From: Lobosporangium transversale
Lineage: Eukaryota; Mortierellomycota; Mortierellomycetes; Mortierellales; Mortierellaceae
Direction: 5' to 3'
NCBI RefSeq assembly: GCF_002105155.1
Contig: NW_019029050.1
Location: forward strand, 89,437-153,436
Length of the DNA stretch: 64,000 bases
The notes under the pieces were generated by a model, which saw only the letters and a program-made list of their open reading frames with translations, was not told where the DNA came from and did no database searches. Both the position numbers and the translations under genes were made by a program. This document shows positions 42,774-64,000 of this stretch, one piece after another (position 1 is the stretch's first letter; every line of letters starts with the position of its first letter).

Positions 42774-42835
42774 TTTTTTTTCTTTTCTTTTTTGAGGGGG
42801 CGGGAGAGGATGTTACTGTTGGTTGTTGCTGTTGT

Positions 42836-42903
42836 TGTTATAGTTGTAGTTGTAGTTGTAGTTGTAGTTGTAGTTGTAGTTGTAGTTGTAGTTGTAGTTG
42901 TAG
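42836..42903 (+). repeat. (GTTGTA)n hexanucleotide tandem repeat, about 11 copies
   Basis: Near-perfect tandem GTTGTA units immediately upstream (on the minus-strand transcript, CTACAA/TACAAC units) of the 162-codon gene. Likely in its 5' UTR or promoter. Confidence 0.95.
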
Positions 42904-45900
42904 TGTAATGCTTTTTAAATATTGAGATCAGATATAATGATTAAGGGAAAGGATATTACTGATTTGTTTGAAATAAGAATGAAGAGAGAAAGAAAGAAAG
43001 AGGGAAATAATATATAAATATAAATGTATAAAAAATAAAAATAAAAAAAGTGTTTGAAAGAAGGTGTTTAATTCGGACTGATGAATTTTGCTGTGGTCCT
43101 TTTATAAGCTGCCGATTGATAGGATGATTTTGGCTGACTGGACAATTTCTGGATTGCTTATTTTGGGATTGACTCTTTGCTGTTATCCAACCTTAGTGCT
43201 GTTTGCGATGCCGTATGACGAACGTATCCGTGGGCTCGTGTACAGCTCAATCGGGAACGTACAATGACAGAAAAAAAAAAAAGAAAAGAAAAGAAAAAGA
43301 AAAAGAAAAAAAGGGCGCCAAGGGTCTTGTTGCAGATGGTTACAAGACAAGAGAAAGAGAGTGATACGATACGGAGCAGTAATATGAGAAGGAAAAATAA
43401 AAAAGATAAAGAAATAACAAAGTGGTTGGGCGAGAGTGGATTCAAAAAAAGGGATGTTAACAGGGGGGCTGACAAGAGTGCACCAGTCTAAGGAGCTTCT
43501 TGAAAGAACAAGAAAAAAGGGGAAGAGAGTAATAGAAATAGGATTTGAAGGTCCTCGTGCAAGTCGACTGACTGGAAGCGTGGGTGGAGGTGTGATAGGT
43601 TGCCAAAATGGGATTGCCTCTATCCTTTTGGTGTTTGAGTATGGGCTTTTGCGTTATGGGTGAAAGCTGAAAGTGGTAAAGTACTTTGGGCAATGCTAAT
43701 GAAAGGATACAGAAAGAGAAAAAGAGTGAGTTGTAGAAAGAGATAAAAAAGAGAGAAGAGGGGAAAAAAAAGAAAAGAAAAGAAAAAAATCGGGGGTTAC
43801 AGAGCCAAGTGGAGGGGGTTTAAGTAGGTTTTTCTTGTACATGTAGTATTGTACGCGAATGCATTTGATGGATGACAACCTGCAAAAGAGCTCTTCCAGT
43901 CAAAAGCGAGAATATTCCCCTTTGTTTGTTTGTATTCACCAGCAGGGTTGTAAATAAGAGAGAGAGAAAAGAAAAATAGAGAGCACAACTTACTCCAGCT
44001 CCAGATTGTGTCTGTTAGTCATATCAATCTGTTCACCCAATTCACAAGAAGAGAGGGGAGCATGCTTTGCATATTCGTTGGCTTGTGCGACCATGCGAGG
44101 AGAGGGGAAATGGCATCAAACTACAACAACAAGTAGCAAGACAGCTTATACAAACACCCAAAAACGGACACAAACAACCATGCTTATGATACACAGTGAG
44201 CTCTCCCCTTTCCCTCCTGGGTCTCGTCCTTGTCTCTTTTTTACACCCTTCGGTGCTCTGTGCATGTCCATGATGTGAAAAGAAAAACGTTGCTCATAAT
44301 AAAAAAAAAGAAATCTAATCCAACAGCCTCCGCATTGGCTACATGAACTATAAACATACCAGTTTTGCTTACTCGCCTCTGTTTTTCAGTTCACAATGTG
44401 GGACAAAAATAAAATAAAACAATGGTCGCCAGGTTAACAAGCCTTTTTGCAAAAAATATACTAGCATGTATTTGAATAATTGATCCAAGGAAAGAAAAAC
44501 ACCGACCATCCTTAACATAAAGAGATACAGTATATACATTTATACAAATGCATGATACACATATATACATTCATCTATATAGTCTATACGATATCAATCT
44601 GAACAAGGTCACCAACACGATTGAATTGTGGTGATTGATGGGGCGAGGAATAAGTTCATAACACCTAAATGCCTGTACATCCTTTCATTCTTTCTCTCCT
44701 TCTCCTTCTCCTTCTCCCCTCTCTCCCCCTTCTTTCCCTCTTCTCTCTCCTTCTCTCTTTCTCTCTTTCTCTCTTTCTCTTTTATCTTGTACGAGGATGG
44801 AACACGGAACAACGTTGATAGTCTAAACCCTTATAGTAAGTATTAAAAAGATCACCAACTACACTAGCTAATGACTTCCTAAAGACAATCGAGCCCAAGA
44901 CCTTATTCAATGAAGAGTCTGATCCCAGAACCCAACAGTCTAGTGAAATCTCATATCTGAAACCATATGATTTAAACAAGGACGTGTTGATAATGAACGT
45001 CATAAAGTGGCGGGAAGAAGAAAAAGGAAAAAAGATACTGTGCTACAGTACAATACTGAAAACGCAATGAGTGGTAACATCTTGCACCACTCTCTGATTC
45101 TGTTTACTGGAAATAAAAGGAAAGCCTGATTCCCGTCCACCATTTCAACTTTTTTTTGATAAGGTTTTTCTTTTCTTCTTTCTTTTTTTTTTTTTTTCTG
45201 CATCTTCACGCACGCAACAATGTATATACATTTGTATATAAAAATATTCATATACTCTGCTTGCAGAAAAAAAAAATCATATTAGGTTATAGCTAAAGAG
45301 TCCTATCAGTCCACAACTTACTATAGATGTAGATTGGAATGGGAAGCACAGCACTGAAAAAAAAAAAAAAAAAAAAAAAAGGATATAATGAATCGGTATA
45401 AAGTCGCAAAAAAGAATGTGAAAGTGGAAAGGGCAAATAGGGGAATGATAAGGTTGTTTGCGTTGGAGTAAAAACGCACATGTAAAAAGAGGCGCAAACT
45501 ACTACTGCTGCTGCTGTTGTTGTTGTTGTTGTTGTTGTTGGAAGAAAGGAAGGAAAGGAAGAAATAGGGGAAGCAGGAACAACCGAGCATGATGATGAAG
45601 GTTCGGGCCACGGACAATGCACATTTCAAAATATTCCTGACTATGTCAGGCACAAAAGAACAAAAAGATTGACTATTTGGAGTCATTGCATGACATAAAT
45701 AGCACTGTTCCTCTCCTCGTCCCTCTCCCCTGGCCATTGTGCTCAGGTCGATCATTTCGAGGAGTATTACGAGTATTTCGAGTATTACGGAATACAGCAG
45801 ACAGAACGATGACTGTGCGCTCAATCAAGCTCTAAATGATTATGCTTAGGAGCCATGGCTTTATTTTTGTTTATTGCCTCATTCATTAATTCATAAAAAA

Positions 45901-48484: not shown

Positions 48485-51093
48485 TTAGCCGCTGTCCTCA
48501 ATTATCAAAAATTTACAGCTTTCCAGGCGCTCCATAATCGCCAATTCCACCTGCTGCCGGTAGCTTGCCGCCACTCGCCGGTCTGCCTCAGTCCTGATCG
48601 CCTTCACATCTGCTGTTCGTCGTTGTCCCTGGTGAGAGCCAAAGAATTCACCTCTGCTACGTCTGTGCCTCCCAACACAGTTGCGTCCCCTGGCGCGTTT
48701 GCTCACAGAGGTGATACCATTGTCTCTTTCCCAGTTGACGGTGACTTTGCAGCGTCTGTTCCAGATTTCAGTCCTGCCGAGTTCCTCGATTGACTTGACA
48801 AAGCGGCAAACAATGTACCTTGAGATCGATGCTGTGGTTCTGAAGATCGTCTTCCATTTTTGTATCAGTTCCTTCGGCACCAAACCGTGGTACAAGTCTT
48901 GGACAGTCCAGTGGGCATGCTCACCCTCGTTCCTCCGTCCCATATCCACATCTTCCTCACCAAACAGAGTGCTCGCATGTCGAATCTCTCTGACGCCCTT
49001 GAACATCGCTTCCAAAGAGCCCCAAATCACGTTGTCGGCTACAGGTGTAAACGAGGGGCCTCCTTTATTCAGGTTTGGCTCCTGTGTTTTCCCTTGTTTG
49101 TCTTCCCAGAGCTTCTTCTCCTTCACTAATGCTCTTTTGCCATCCTTCGTGATGAGTTCTATGGCCTGCTTCCAACCTTTCAATTGCTCGTCCAGTGTCA
49201 TGGGACATCGCCAGAGGTGTTCTATGTCCTCCTGCTCCTGTTCACACATCCTGCAGATGTCAGTCTCATACAGGTCCGGTCGCCACTGCCTCATATAAGT
49301 GAGTGTAGGAAGCATACCATGGACCTTCTTTATTCTGTGCGCTCTCTTGTGACAATCTGCTGGGCTGGTGAAGAGGCCTCTAGGCGTGTTGCCATCGTGA
49401 AGAATATGCAGGCTTGCTTTCCATTCTACTTCTCGCCAGTCTGCAATATAATTCCTGACTCTGTTCTGAGACGCCCACAAGTAATGTGTTCTCACTGCTG
49501 ATTGGAGTTTTAGCAGGTGTCTAAGATCATCCTCCACCACCTCGTTCTCGAAAATAGCGTGACAGCGCAGATCGTTGTGTTCCAGTCCTTTGATTGTCCA
49601 CATTTCGCTAAAATGAGCATCTTTGGCGGCTTGGTCTGCCCTTATATTGCCTCTATTCCCAGCATGGCCCTTGACCCATTTCACAGTTACCTTCCCGCCC
49701 TGCTTAAAGAGCGCTCTCGAAATGGCTGCCTACCACACTGCGTACTTGGATCGCAATCGCTGCCGTTCAGTGCTTGCTTCTCGCTTTTGAGCAAGGTCCT
49801 TGAACTGAACCACTACCGCCATGTTGTCTATGTAGACAGTCGTTGGAACGTTACGGGGACTGACTAGAATGGCTGCGTACAGTCCTACTAGCTCTGCCTT
49901 GGTGGATGAAGCATACCCATCGACTCTACCTGAAACTACATTTGAGAAGCTTTCTGGGCCTATCTGAGCCACCACCCCGAAAGCCATCCGCGCCGCCCTT
50001 CTTCCTGCCTCTTCAAGGGACCCATCGGAGTAAAGTGTTAGCTGACTCATCGTTGATAGTTTCTCTCTTTGACGCAGTATATTGTCCATGTCAACCTGTG
50101 GGATCTCTACACCTAGGCACTCAGAGGAGCCAAACCACCGATGATGACCCTCTGGGATTTTATTATTCCTTGTTCTTGAGGAGTCCATCTCTTCTTGCGC
50201 TTTCGTCCTGAGCCTCCTATCGAGAGCTTGTTCGTCGAGTTCATGGCGTCCACGTATCTTGTTTCGCTCTTGTGCTCTACGTCTTGCTCGGTTGAAAGCC
50301 GCTCGTCGTCGCTGTTCTCTTCTTCCTTGTTCATCGAGCCTTTGAAACCTAGCCTGTAACCGTAGGCGTTCTTGACGGCGAGCTCTTTCGATAGCCTTCG
50401 AGTGTGCGGCTTCTTGCTTGGCTTGCACCCACTGTTCACGTCGCCACACTCTCCTTCTCTCCGCCTCTTCTTTTTTCCTCTCTTGCTCTATTTTTCTTAG
50501 CAACCATTGCTCCCTCTTCCCTCTTTCCAAACGGTCGCGAAATTGTAACATTTTCCTTCCTTGAGGATCTTTCCACAGCCTATGCCTCTCGTTAGCTTCG
50601 CGCTCTTTTTCTCTCAAACGCTCTCTTTTTTCAAAATTTTCTCGCAAGTATTCTTTTTGGAGTTCGCGATCAGACTCAGTGTATCCTTCATACTCCTGCA
50701 TACCCTCTTGTATGTAACACTGTGCTCTTCTTTCTCTTTCCTCCCGCTGTTCTACACTTAGGGGATCAAGTGGCTCTCTGGGGTCTTCTTCCACGTCACT
50801 GAGGTAACTTATATATCCAACTTCATCATCCTCATCATCCTCAGTGGGCTGCTCCTCCAACATATTGTCTTCTGTGAGTAGTTCATCTGCTCTCTCATTG
50901 TTTTCAGCCTCATTTAGCTGTTGGAGCTCCCTTAAATCTCTCTCTTCCTCTTCGTCTAGTCTCTGAAGAATGTTCTTTTTGTCTCTACACCATACTTCGG
51001 TAAAGTTGTGTGTGTAAAGGGACTCATGAAGGGCATTTTGAACATTGTGGAACCATGCTGGAGATGCCTTTGGGTCTCTCCGAGTGTGGAAGG

Positions 51094-51094
<1 letters not shown>
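48485..51094 (-). pseudogene. LINE ORF2 C-terminal half: Arg/Glu-rich domain, RNase H, zinc finger
   Basis: One frame stays open for over 860 codons except for a single TAG at 49730-49732. From the N-terminal side it shows SPAWFHNVQNALHESLYTHN, then about 260 residues of E/R-rich probable coiled coil (51,000-50,130). RNase H follows, with catalytic acidic residues in LYSDGSLEEAG, SSTKAELVGLYAA and VYIDNMAVV, and WVKGHAGNRGNIRADQAAKD after the stop. A C-x2-C-x8-H-x3-C finger (CRMCEQEQEDIEHLWRC), common after RNase H in such elements, is next. The amber interrupts RNase H between YAVW and AAISRAL. CAG-to-TAG is the simplest cause, so this copy is probably dead. Upstream of 51,095 the frame is broken by the nested insertion. 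Confidence 0.85.
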
Positions 51095-51125
<31 letters not shown>

Positions 51126-51169
51126 ATAGCAAGGACCCTCAGGGTCATGGGCCGCTGAGTGCGGAAGGC
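51082..51169 (-). mobile_element. Mini LINE-tail insertion nested inside the LINE, 13-bp TSD
   Basis: GAGTGTGGAAGGC (51082-51094) and GAGTGCGGAAGGC (51157-51169) flank a 62-base insert: 30 T, then GATAGCAAGGACCCTCAGGG, TCATGGGCCGCT. The insert is another family tail with poly(A), pointing the same way as its host. It interrupts the LINE frame, which resumes as TRRDPKASPAWFHNV. The insertion is therefore younger than the LINE copy. Confidence 0.8.
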
Positions 51170-51408
51170 CTCATCTGGTCCACTTCACCGGTCCGCATCT
51201 CTACTCCTTAATCTGTCACTCGATGTTGATGTCTTCCGTATTAAATAGTTTAGATCCAGTTCGATTTTGTCGTAGAGCATCTACTAGTGATCTCTGGAAA
51301 CTAGTAGGTAATGATGAAAAATGAAGAATTGGGCAAGAGCCTCGTGGTTTTGGGATACGATAGTGATCCTAAGTAATGCTTTGAATGATTTTGAGGATGC
51401 TGCAAAAG

Positions 51409-52434: not shown

Positions 52435-52508
52435 GCTCTTGTGGCGCAATTGGTTAGCGCGTCTGACTGTTAATCAGGAGGTTGGTGGTTCAAGCCCACC
52501 CAGGAGCG
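52435..52508 (+). tRNA. tRNA-Asn (GTT)
   Basis: A complete cloverleaf without intron: acceptor GCTCTTG pairs with CAGGAGC, the D-arm has GCGC stems around AATTGGTTA, anticodon stem TCTGA/TCAGG closes loop CTGTTAA (anticodon GTT), and T-arm GGTGG-TTCAAGC-CCACC is perfect. The discriminator is G at 52508. The A and B boxes are intact. It sits about 110 bases from the SINE. Confidence 0.97.
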
Positions 52509-60796: not shown

Positions 60797-62062
60797 TTTT
60801 TTTTCCTTTTTTTTTATTCACTGGGAGTGGGGGTTGGAGGAACGAATTGGTGCAAGAAAAAGGAAAACAGAAGGCAACAAGAATTAATCGAGGCTCTGAG
60901 AGTGTGAATACGTAGATAAATTGCACAAGAGGAAGAGAGAGAAAAAAGAATAAAGACACAGTTCAGAGGAAAGTTTTTGTTTTTAAAATACTGGAACATC
61001 ATGTGTAGCTAATATCCCACGCTCCCATTCAGATATAATCTAAATTTAAATTAAAATTTTGGTGTGCTCGGTCCTGACATTCCTTCAGAAAAATAGAGTG
61101 AGCGGTCAGGGATATCCATCTAATCCTTATTGTCTAGTTGCTTTCGAGGAAGGAGTATAAGCTTATGAAATACAGCTTGGTGAGAAGAGATATAAAAGCT
61201 GGAGACCCATCCAATGTGCATCAGTAGCCTCTGTAGAGGTCTAACTCTATGATTTCCCATCAATATTGCCGATTTCATTCTTTTGTACCATCTCTGCTCT
61301 CTATCCAACAGCCACTCCCTTCCTTGCCTTTTAAATCTAGCTGGTCAATGTTACCCTCAGTTTGTTATTACTGCTCACAGCAGGAATGTCCACTAAAAAA
61401 AAAAAAAAAAGAGCTTTATGCAACAATTCTGGCACGCAGCTAACACCTACTGCCGAGAATTTTTGTAGACGGATGTGCTGGCCAAGTGCATAATATACTG
61501 TCCTATACTCAATGTCGTTGCGTGACCCGTACATTTCCAAACCTCACCAACTCTGTCAGGATTTCATCCCACGCGTACTTGACATCGTTCCCGCTCCACT
61601 GGCTTGACTTCTGTATGGGTTCGATCACTCTCTGAAATTGTCACTCCTGGTTTGAGGCGATTATCTTTTCCAAATATTCAGATTTTGAACTCGCTCAGGG
61701 TTGAGGATACAAAAATAAATAATTCGAATAGTTCTATCCTGGAGTTCCTCACCCAAAATACTAGACATGGATACCAGCAACAAACTAACGGGCGGATCAG
61801 AAGCTCAACTGTGTTCTTCCGCCGTGAATATCAGTCTGGCTTTGGCAAGACGGCCCTCGAGGCATTGGCCTATCACTACTTTAGTTTATGAGCGTATTGT
61901 TTCTTGTGTAGAATCCAGATGGCATTATCTGTTGATCTGTACGGTTTTTAAAGTTAGTCCAGAAATTCAGGGGCAAAAGATTAGAGAGGATGGATACAGG
62001 AGACGAAAATAAGCAGAACTTACAAATTTTTTGTGGGTGTGCCGGCACCCAAATACTTGTGT
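60797..62062. other. Region between the Rieske gene and the Fanzor remnant
   Basis: No intact gene is visible. Minus-strand frames in 61,130-61,560 (for example AWDEILTELVRFGNVRVTQR near 61,540) and 61,800-61,990 are short and broken and may be remnants of an unrecognised gene. The part next to 62,063 is where a Fanzor element would be expected to carry its guide (omega) RNA, judging by family knowledge; I see no diagnostic structure by eye. Confidence 0.35.
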
Positions 62063-64000
62063 CTAGCGTCGTGCGCGCTTTGCAGCCGGAGCAGGCGACT
62101 CTTCCGTGGGCTTGTACTTTGCAGGCCTCTCTTGTCTCTCAATTTGAGCAAGACCGATTCTTGCGATGTTTTCCACCCCTACTGCGTCACGGTCGAAGAA
62201 TACCTTACATGCCCGGCAATATTTAGAGCGAGGGTACACCGTCTCTAAAAAGCTATCACAGAGGGGTCGGGGACAGCGGGCGTTGGTGTAAAATTCGTGC
62301 GCTCCTACAGTGAAGTGTCCTCGCGCTTTGACCTAAGTGTTTCAAATGGCAGTCGTTTATTAGCAAGGGTTCTATGGCTTTCCAGCTTTTCTTACTTTTT
62401 TAAAAAAAAAGCCATACCTGTGTGACAAGATGTCTCGTTATAGCAGTGTGCTTGCTGGGAACTCCTTTACTACTTTCAAAGGACCCTAGGCCGACGACAA
62501 GCACTCCTTTATCCCCAAGCATCTTCAACACTCGCTGTACCGCGTAGTCGAACGTAGCTCGTTGAGCCTTTCGTAGGTCCCATTTTTTTTTCAGATGCCA
62601 TCTGGATTCGTAGAACTCTTGAAGCACATCCAAATTCGTTGATCCTGTCTGTGTCTGAGACTCCCCGTTCATCCATTGAAAGTACTCATTATACGTATCC
62701 CTTCCAAACACAGGGATGGCGCTCTCAACCTCAATCATTGCTTTTTCACGCTTCCTTTTGTTCTACAGGTAATTGAAGCGGAGGACAGGGAGGTACAAGA
62801 ACCTGCTTCTCACCTTTACCGTTTGCCGCAAGTTAGGGTTGTGAGGGTCCAGCGAGGAAAACGTAAGGGCATTAACAATACCAGGATCACATCCGACGAT
62901 AGTTGTGGTGTTTGCGGATGGGCATCGCCCTGGTTTGTTGAATGTGAGCTCAACGTTTTCAAGCAGCTTGGAGCTCCTCTTCCAGTTTATGTTTGCGTAG
63001 TCTTCATCTGTTAGGTCTTCACCGGCCGCCTTTGAGCACGTCGTGTTGAGAAATCCCTGAGAAAGCTCCAGTTTTTGGCTGGGGCCTTCTTCATCTACGT
63101 CAGACTGCTGCTGTCTCTTCGTCTGGGTTGTGTCATAGGCAAGTAGATTCAGAACTAGACCGTTGGTAGAAATCGTTCCTTTGAGTTTGAACCGAGTTAG
63201 ATCTTTGTCCTGTGACTGCAGGGATACTTTGTCTTGATATCCACGAACCATGCGATCACCTCCAATGTCACAAAAGAGAGCCTGTATCAAAACCCCTTTT
63301 GTTCCCTGTACACACTCATACATTGCAGTCTTGGAAGATTATTGAGAGGCAGAATACGCTCCAGCAGCTGCTTGGTATCTTCGTTCGCCCAGAGGATGTC
63401 AACTAGGGCGTGTTCAGACAGATACACATACCCGGGTGACCAGGGGGCGTAGGAAAGTCTGAGTATTTTTTCACTTTTTTGTTCTCCCGCAAAAAAAACT
63501 CAATGTCGCTCATATCTTCGTTTGTTTTCTCGACATCAAACTAAGAAAAAAAAAAAAAAAAAAAAAAAAGGTGTGAATAAAGAGCATTTGATTGCAGAAT
63601 ATGCATGAAAATACCCTACACAAGCTATACCATTGCGTTCCTGTAGTGCTGCCTTAATGATGTCTGTACTTGGCCCATTAGTAAGTCTGACGCTCTTGGA
63701 AATGTGATCTTTTTGGGATCAAAGCCTTGGACGTCCCCCAATGTGATGTCTATTCCTTTATTGGGGAAAGTTCAGTGGTGGCCTTGAAATGTTCATAAGC
63801 GAGGTGATGTGGGCGTTTCTACCGCCTTTCCTTGTTTTTTTGCCCTCGCGTAAGCTGAATTGGGGCCACCTTGACCACTCAAAAGAAGGGTGGCGAGACG
63901 GAAGGAATAATCATTGCTATCCAAGACCTCGTCCAGTGCCTTTTTCCTCGACTTTGCTGCCCCTGGTAACCGCATGATCCTCTCAATGTCCAAGGCAATC
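62063..64000 (-). pseudogene. Fanzor (eukaryotic TnpB-like RNA-guided nuclease), decayed copy
   Basis: Fanzors are eukaryotic relatives of transposon TnpB that cut DNA guided by an omega RNA. RuvC-I is TTTIVGCDPGIVNALTFSSL, with Asp at 62886-62888. The helical segment before RuvC-II (LRKAQRATFDYAVQRVLKML) leads to VLVVGLGSFESSKG, where the usual Glu is replaced. After an intron (62333-62417) comes GAHEFYTNARCPRPLC, whose Glu is the candidate substitute, then the zinc-ribbon second half KYCRACKVFFDRDAVGVENI with the RuvC-III Asp. It ends AAKRARR, TAG 62063-62065. Upstream pieces include SYAPWSPGYVYLSEHALVDI, RLTNGPSTDIIKAALQERNG and, to the window edge, MRLPGAAKSRKKALDEVLDS. Breaks: amber at 62763-62765, frame shifts near 63,330, at the A8 run 63491-63498, at 63710-63714 and near 63,760-63,800. 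Probably a pseudogene. Confidence 0.85.

Follow-up and report, generated by a model that had tools for sequence, protein, structure and literature searches.

The right-hand end of a 64,000-nucleotide stretch of Lobosporangium transversale (Mortierellaceae) DNA, referred to here as the window and forming part of contig C98, carries on its minus strand the C-terminal part of a Fanzor nuclease, a member of a family of mobile elements whose intact relatives very probably encode the Fanzor fused to a second, FEN1/EXO1-type nuclease domain. A sequence-only reading had placed the Fanzor at 62063-64000, correctly: its stop codon ends at 62063 and it can be read up to 64000, in three exons whose boundaries were taken from comparison with a sister copy on contig C66. 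The element itself, which belongs to family A, occupies 61926-64000. Its right (3') end is sharp, with other copies alike up to base 61926 and unrelated beyond it except at duplicated places, and its 5' side is cut by the contig end. Read along the minus strand, the remnant comprises the 3' part of exon 2 (63631-64000, encoding the N-terminal part of the Fanzor and placed by alignment to C66), a T-rich intron 2 (63541-63630, with GT..AG borders and placed by comparison with families A and B), exon 3 (62418-63540), intron 3 (62333-62417, also GT..AG, with the annotated model P0004 splicing at the corresponding place in family B), exon 4 (62063-62332) and a non-coding 3' end (61926-62062), where a guide RNA scaffold would be expected by position only.

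Exon 3 encodes part of the WED domain, with the motif TNG, followed by the RuvC-I motif GCDPGIVN (62871-62894) and a RuvC-II strand, VVGLGSFESS (62469-62498), that lacks the canonical Glu. Exon 4 encodes HEFYTNARCP (62270-62299), in which the moved catalytic Glu (codon 62294-62296) stands six residues before the zinc ribbon, then the zinc-ribbon cysteines (CPRPLC...YCRAC), RuvC-III (FDRDAVGVENI, 62165-62197) and the stop codon. Every motif that the sequence-only reading had named is present on the minus strand.

The 5' half of the window copy is missing because the window ends where contig C98 ends; beyond that point fall the FEN-type exon and the first half of exon 2. Compared with C66, the window copy has an in-frame stop codon in exon 3 and four small frame-breaking indels, two in exon 2 and two in exon 3; a fifth indel by which the exons of the two copies differ is apparently a break in C66 itself. 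By its sequence the window copy is a pseudogene, dead and truncated. Both this state and the contig end were missed in the earlier reading, and the FEN1-type domain lay outside its view. The right flank of the window element recurs on contigs C50 and C48, which also hold family A pieces, and the same insertion therefore appears to exist in three places. Several places are common to C48 and C50 in opposite order, their coordinates summing to about 537.9 kb, which is how long C48 is. The end of the window has matches on each of them, and these two contigs and the C98 end are candidates for duplicated or haplotype contigs.

In the accessible text of PMC10711439, Fanzors are defined by DPG together with a Glu six residues before the zinc ribbon, and that of PMC11423790 places the catalytic Glu on a loop before the TNB domain. 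We built a six-sequence RuvC/zinc-ribbon profile, with a family A row assembled from C66 and window exons, in which DPG and the moved Glu are both invariant (6/6); outside the profile, family C and P0010 have DLG for DPG. This profile gave weak matches to the TnpB-like L79 (9b0l, E 0.0058) and to SpuFz1 (8gkh, E 0.016; 0.16 for its single stretch alone), and in the profile alignment the moved Glu in exon 4 falls on the Glu that in both proteins precedes the first zinc-ribbon Cys by six residues. The canonical TnpB Glu, about 50 residues before the zinc ribbon, is not present, the sequence there being GLGSF. The TNB zinc-ribbon family PF07282 has 69 matches genome-wide, 66 of them above the cut-off, and among predicted homologues scores above it in P0004, P0006, P0011, P0012 and P0014 and below it in P0007 and P0016. 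The WED motif is TNG in families A and B and several others, and TDG in family C and P0013. A phmmer search with P0004 alone matched mainly its low-complexity tail, and an AlphaFold2 model of the Fanzor core (P0004 with eight relatives) reached a predicted local distance difference test score (pLDDT) of 44.6, too poor to judge the position of the Glu against the Asp pair.

Because the DPG and moved-Glu fingerprint is found and PF07282 lies above its cut-off in sister families and several fungal homologues, the window sequence is identified as a Fanzor, as the sequence-only reading had proposed. In the profile check that it suggested, sister copies score above the PF07282 cut-off, but the window exon itself falls below (21.4 against 26.3 bits) and is not among the 69 matches, and NCBIfam guided_TnpB gave only weak matches of 22-25 bits against a cut-off of 100. 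Its statement that published work describes a moved Glu in many Fanzors agrees with the fingerprint in the accessible part of PMC10711439. The Glu has indeed moved; what does not hold is its standing as a notable trait, as it is a general and already published feature of Fanzors and no peculiarity of the window copy.

A search for paralogues in the same genome, which had also been suggested, found 153 matches to a 186-residue piece of the window, well beyond what chance would give; 28 of them, counting that of the window, span 180 residues or more with 84-100% identity. In the family B copy on C51 every exon is open, namely FEN, exons 2 and 3 and the zinc ribbon. What distinguishes these elements is the FEN-type exon. 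Of the 69 Fanzor zinc-ribbon matches, 38 are preceded within 6 kb by a FEN match in the same orientation, compared with two that have one on the other strand and one that has it downstream; the count took in all 121 FEN matches of the genome, and a shorter list gave the same result. The arrangement appears to extend to family C (L117), which is very diverged and has DLG for DPG, with a FEN-type domain bearing EAD, DSD and NDY upstream on the same strand.

Three further observations concern the structure of family B. A deletion derivative (L028 with L118, C33) keeps the right part of the family. The spacing is shorter at C36, C53, C24, C59, C85, C87 and C102 (1.9-2.8 kb, against 3.4 kb), which suggests an amplified short type of the element. 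The left part of family B also holds an antisense remnant of a family A-like Fanzor at 49-61% identity with common stop codons (L066:1363-1870, and at least 25 further places), on its sequence one Fanzor element fossilised within another and amplified with it.

The fold of the FEN-type domain was compared using the sister element L066 of family B, not the window. The match spans residues 2-311, with 10-18% identity in the structural matches, and Z is 22-23 for EXO1 and FEN1 against 16-21 for XPG/Rad2. Six active-site acid columns are invariant in all seven aligned sequences and the seventh is kept in six, family A having Asn, and an invariant Lys and Arg are kept as well. We take the residues at these positions to have the active-site roles of their counterparts, including that of the Lys and Arg in FEN1. 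Alignment of hidden Markov models (HMMs) with EXO1 paired all the active-site acids but the first, and the EAD motif is as in EXO1. The domain stays under every Pfam and NCBIfam cut-off tried (best XPG_I, 13.6 of 24.9 bits, and XPG_I_2, 18.3 of 24.2), which could explain why such proteins are listed as hypothetical. A profile built from only the four complete fusions reached FEN1 no better than at E 0.12 and SpuFz1 at 0.47, and broader profiles did better. As judged by fold and motifs, the domain is a distant relative of the FEN1/EXO1/XPG (Rad2) family, and in most of the element families it is probably a working 5' nuclease.

The FEN exon ends at GTAAG and the next exon begins after an AG 84-100 bases further on, in frame, in family A (C66) and in family B (C13, C1 and C37). 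Past this join, families A and B have in common the stretch FYI...N(Q/R)(F/Y)RP(I/V)F, then a very basic run and then the N-terminal part of the Fanzor. In family A the exon after the FEN exon runs for over 100 residues before any Met. This very join is the one in the annotated L. transversale model P0003, and the linker exon is conserved across species. Database searches, in each of which about 8000 best-word candidates were scored, found 17 proteins in total, all from Mortierellaceae; no relatives outside this family were found among those candidates, which does not of itself show absence elsewhere. Both halves are complete in a single gene model in Podila verticillata (P0006, 1260 amino acids (aa)) and in three Mortierella alpina models (P0011, 1186 aa; P0012, 1502 aa, with extra residues in front; P0014, 1121 aa). 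Parts of both halves occur in P0005, P0007 and P0013 (Benniella), P0008 (M. antarctica, partial), P0010 (Linnemannia gamsii) and P0015 (M. alpina); P0001, P0002, P0004 and P0016 are Fanzor-only models, P0003 and P0017 begin inside the FEN part, and P0009 is rearranged. Trees of the FEN and Fanzor halves from ten sequences showed no supported conflict, the FEN tree being weak (2/7 inner branches starred). What is observed directly is the presence of the two domains, the order and strand in which they occur, the recurrence of the join in gene models of several species, and the element ends described below. We consider it very likely from these sequences that an intact element encodes one spliced protein, with a nuclease of the FEN1/EXO1/XPG family at its N terminus, a conserved linker containing a basic stretch, and a Fanzor1-type nuclease at its C terminus.

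Family B elements have inverted ends, TAGYCCGTYCCATT, with TA outside at 18/20 distinct left ends and 11/15 distinct right ends. Family A has TA at 24/25 distinct right ends and no clear terminal inverted repeat (TIR); TA at its left ends (14/14) proves nothing, having been part of the search pattern. Beyond the TA, right flanks showed no strong preference among the positions computed (best single-position p 0.035 for family A and 0.013 for family B, uncorrected). Left flanks are markedly biased: the main type of family A has A at -2 in 13/14 (p 1e-6) and C at -1 in 12/14 (p 4e-7), its second type has T at -1 in 8/8 (p 6e-5), and family B has G at -1 in 19/20 (p 2e-12). It is less likely that these bases belong to the element, because the family A copy L012 is inserted in the right end of a family B element, and there the bases come from the GGAC of that end. 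We read the conserved left-flank bases as candidate family-specific target-adjacent motifs (TAMs). Helitron or Crypton ends were considered and dropped, TA being present at both ends. L013 was likewise dropped as a second case of family A beside a family B end; from about position 2142, to the right of the family B end, it holds a short element of ~430 bp which has only its first bases in common with the family A left end, these recurring inverted at the far side, and which is perhaps a miniature inverted-repeat transposable element (MITE) related to family A.

The best overall explanation, which we hold with somewhat better than even confidence and whose mechanism is inferred, is that these are mobile elements encoding an RNA-guided cutter joined in one protein to a processor of 5' ends, which tilts repair towards copy-in. 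A guide RNA made up of the element's right end and flanking DNA would direct the Fanzor, which would cut an empty or homologous site adjoining the TAM. The tethered FEN/EXO1-type domain would then trim 5' ends or flaps there, so that the break tends to be repaired by copying the chromosome that bears the element, and excision and insertion would probably be the work of a TA-specific transposase acting in trans. The direction of the proposed trimming fits a 5' nuclease, and in the accessible text of PMC12386499 prime editors were paired by engineers with FEN1 and EXO1 to improve editing. For the resection and copy-in role of the FEN domain taken by itself, our confidence falls a little short of even.

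Several observations weigh against this picture. Thirty-one of the 69 Fanzor matches have no FEN match nearby; the one of these that was examined, on C33, is a deletion derivative from which FEN, exon 2 and the beginning of exon 3 are gone. Most copies are decayed by their sequence, since exon 2 is open throughout in only three of the 11 family B copies read (C1, C37 and C51) and is broken or altered in the rest, C13 included. Gene callers can fuse adjacent genes into one model, and part of the FEN domain is missing from P0013 and P0015. In family A an Asn replaces one metal-binding Asp (QDSN), and the ratio of non-synonymous to synonymous changes (pN/pS) between copies comes to 0.57 in the FEN exon (all pairs of 14 copies) and 0.71 in exon 2 (14 copies), against 0.26 for Fanzor exon 3 (29 copies, each against C66); an earlier value for the FEN exon from three copies was 0.88, on few changes. 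These values are rough, as the copies are related and the exon 3 design and copy set differ from those for FEN and exon 2. They suggest that the FEN part is less constrained in family A, in line with the lost Asp, and weaken the case for an active FEN there, without bearing on families in which all the acids are kept. A search with two right flanks found no empty site, only insertion-bearing copies or partial repeats, and RNA folding of the family A and B 3' ends was no better than that of shuffles (z 0.48).

If the FEN-type and Fanzor genes merely adjoined in one element and were expressed apart, an intron between the two parts and the Fanzor-only L. transversale models P0001, P0002 and P0004 would be natural. 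Such a pair would hardly account for four single-gene models in two species, for the use of the join by P0003, or for a linker exon without an early Met in family A that is conserved across species and joined in frame in two diverged families, and we regard two separate proteins as improbable. On another view there is nothing new here, and the window holds a commonplace, degraded fungal Fanzor1 whose moved Glu is the usual one. For the window copy by itself this is so; the extra nuclease found in sister copies and homologues makes it very improbable as an account of the elements, unless the FEN linkage were an artefact of annotation. A further alternative would retain the fusion and reduce the FEN-type domain to a captured, catalytically idle DNA-binding module. 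The Asp to Asn change and the weaker constraint in family A copies speak for it, but the other six aligned sequences keep all seven acids, as well as the invariant Lys and Arg, and we judge it improbable also, very slightly more so than two separate proteins.

Two other roles would leave the domain active. It might cut the displaced strand or the R-loop junction made by the Fanzor, in the manner of XPG acting on bubbles, and so aid target cutting and not repair. The fold does match XPG/Rad2, cutters of single-strand/double-strand junctions, if at lower Z, and the EAD motif is as in EXO1; against this, characterised Fanzors cut both strands by RuvC alone, according to the accessible text of PMC10432273 and PMC11423790. 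This role is unlikely, though of the alternatives it deserves the most credit. The domain might instead act in transposition, by excision or insertion, making the element self-sufficient. No other open stretch of more than 180 codons was found in the two elements read through, a search in which transposase profiles were not used, and the elements have multiplied to dozens of copies. However, in family B the TA flanks and the TIRs are signs of a Tc1/mariner-like DDE transposase, and the FEN-less deletion derivative keeps the family's right part, as expected for mobilisation in trans; a transposition role therefore seems distinctly unlikely, and only a little less so than two separate proteins. 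The RNA-guided cutter joined to a 5'-end processor remains the explanation we prefer.

Like the Fanzor1 proteins SpuFz1, GtFz1 and PpFz1, the Fanzor part has DPG, the moved Glu before the zinc ribbon, RuvC-III and T(N/D)G in the WED part, and belongs to a mobile element beyond whose left end certain bases are conserved, CA in the case of SpuFz1 elements (PMC10432273, accessible text). Most Fanzor1s have 600-700 residues according to the accessible part of PMC11423790, a notable exception being FRI, an insertion inside the RuvC of PpFz1, whereas the fusions have about 1120-1500 aa, with an N-terminal FEN1-type domain and a basic linker. The RuvC domain is split by a zinc ribbon as in TnpB (IS200/IS605, IS607), but unlike TnpB the window Fanzor lacks the canonical RuvC-II Glu. 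With FEN1, EXO1 and XPG the N-terminal domain shares the fold over residues 2-311, the catalytic acids and an MG(I/L/T/Q) start; it differs in its low identity (10-18%), in falling below the tested Pfam and NCBIfam cut-offs, and in being fused to a Fanzor in a mobile element. A further likeness is to the editor-nuclease fusions described in the accessible text of PMC12386499, which also pair an RNA-guided effector with a FEN1/EXO1-type nuclease; those are man-made, while this one is natural and resides in a mobile element. No report of a FEN1-type domain joined to a Fanzor or TnpB, and none on Fanzors of Mortierella or its kin, was found in the searchable literature, which leaves out most subscription papers; the fusion is new as far as searchable papers show, and priority is not certain.

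Elsewhere in the window, two neighbouring open frames on the minus strand (48485-51184) resemble, by eye, RNase H and retroelement remnants, and lie about 1.3 kb from a tRNA-Asn gene at 52435-52508. A tandem array of about 12 units of GTTGTA occupies 42831-42904.

Fanzors attract study as RNA-guided editors of eukaryotic origin, and the reason for their presence in mobile elements is still debated. A FEN1/EXO1-type nuclease joined to a Fanzor suggests that the steering of repair belongs to the natural job of these proteins, and the fusions, several hundred residues longer than most known Fanzor1s, are ready-made for testing. We put forward tentatively, as a possibility with the odds somewhat against it, that this is a natural two-nuclease system, borne by the elements of a single fungal family, in which one protein would both cut an RNA-chosen site and process its 5' ends, biasing repair to copying of the element. 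If true, it would be evolution's own counterpart of the editor-FEN1/EXO1 fusions.
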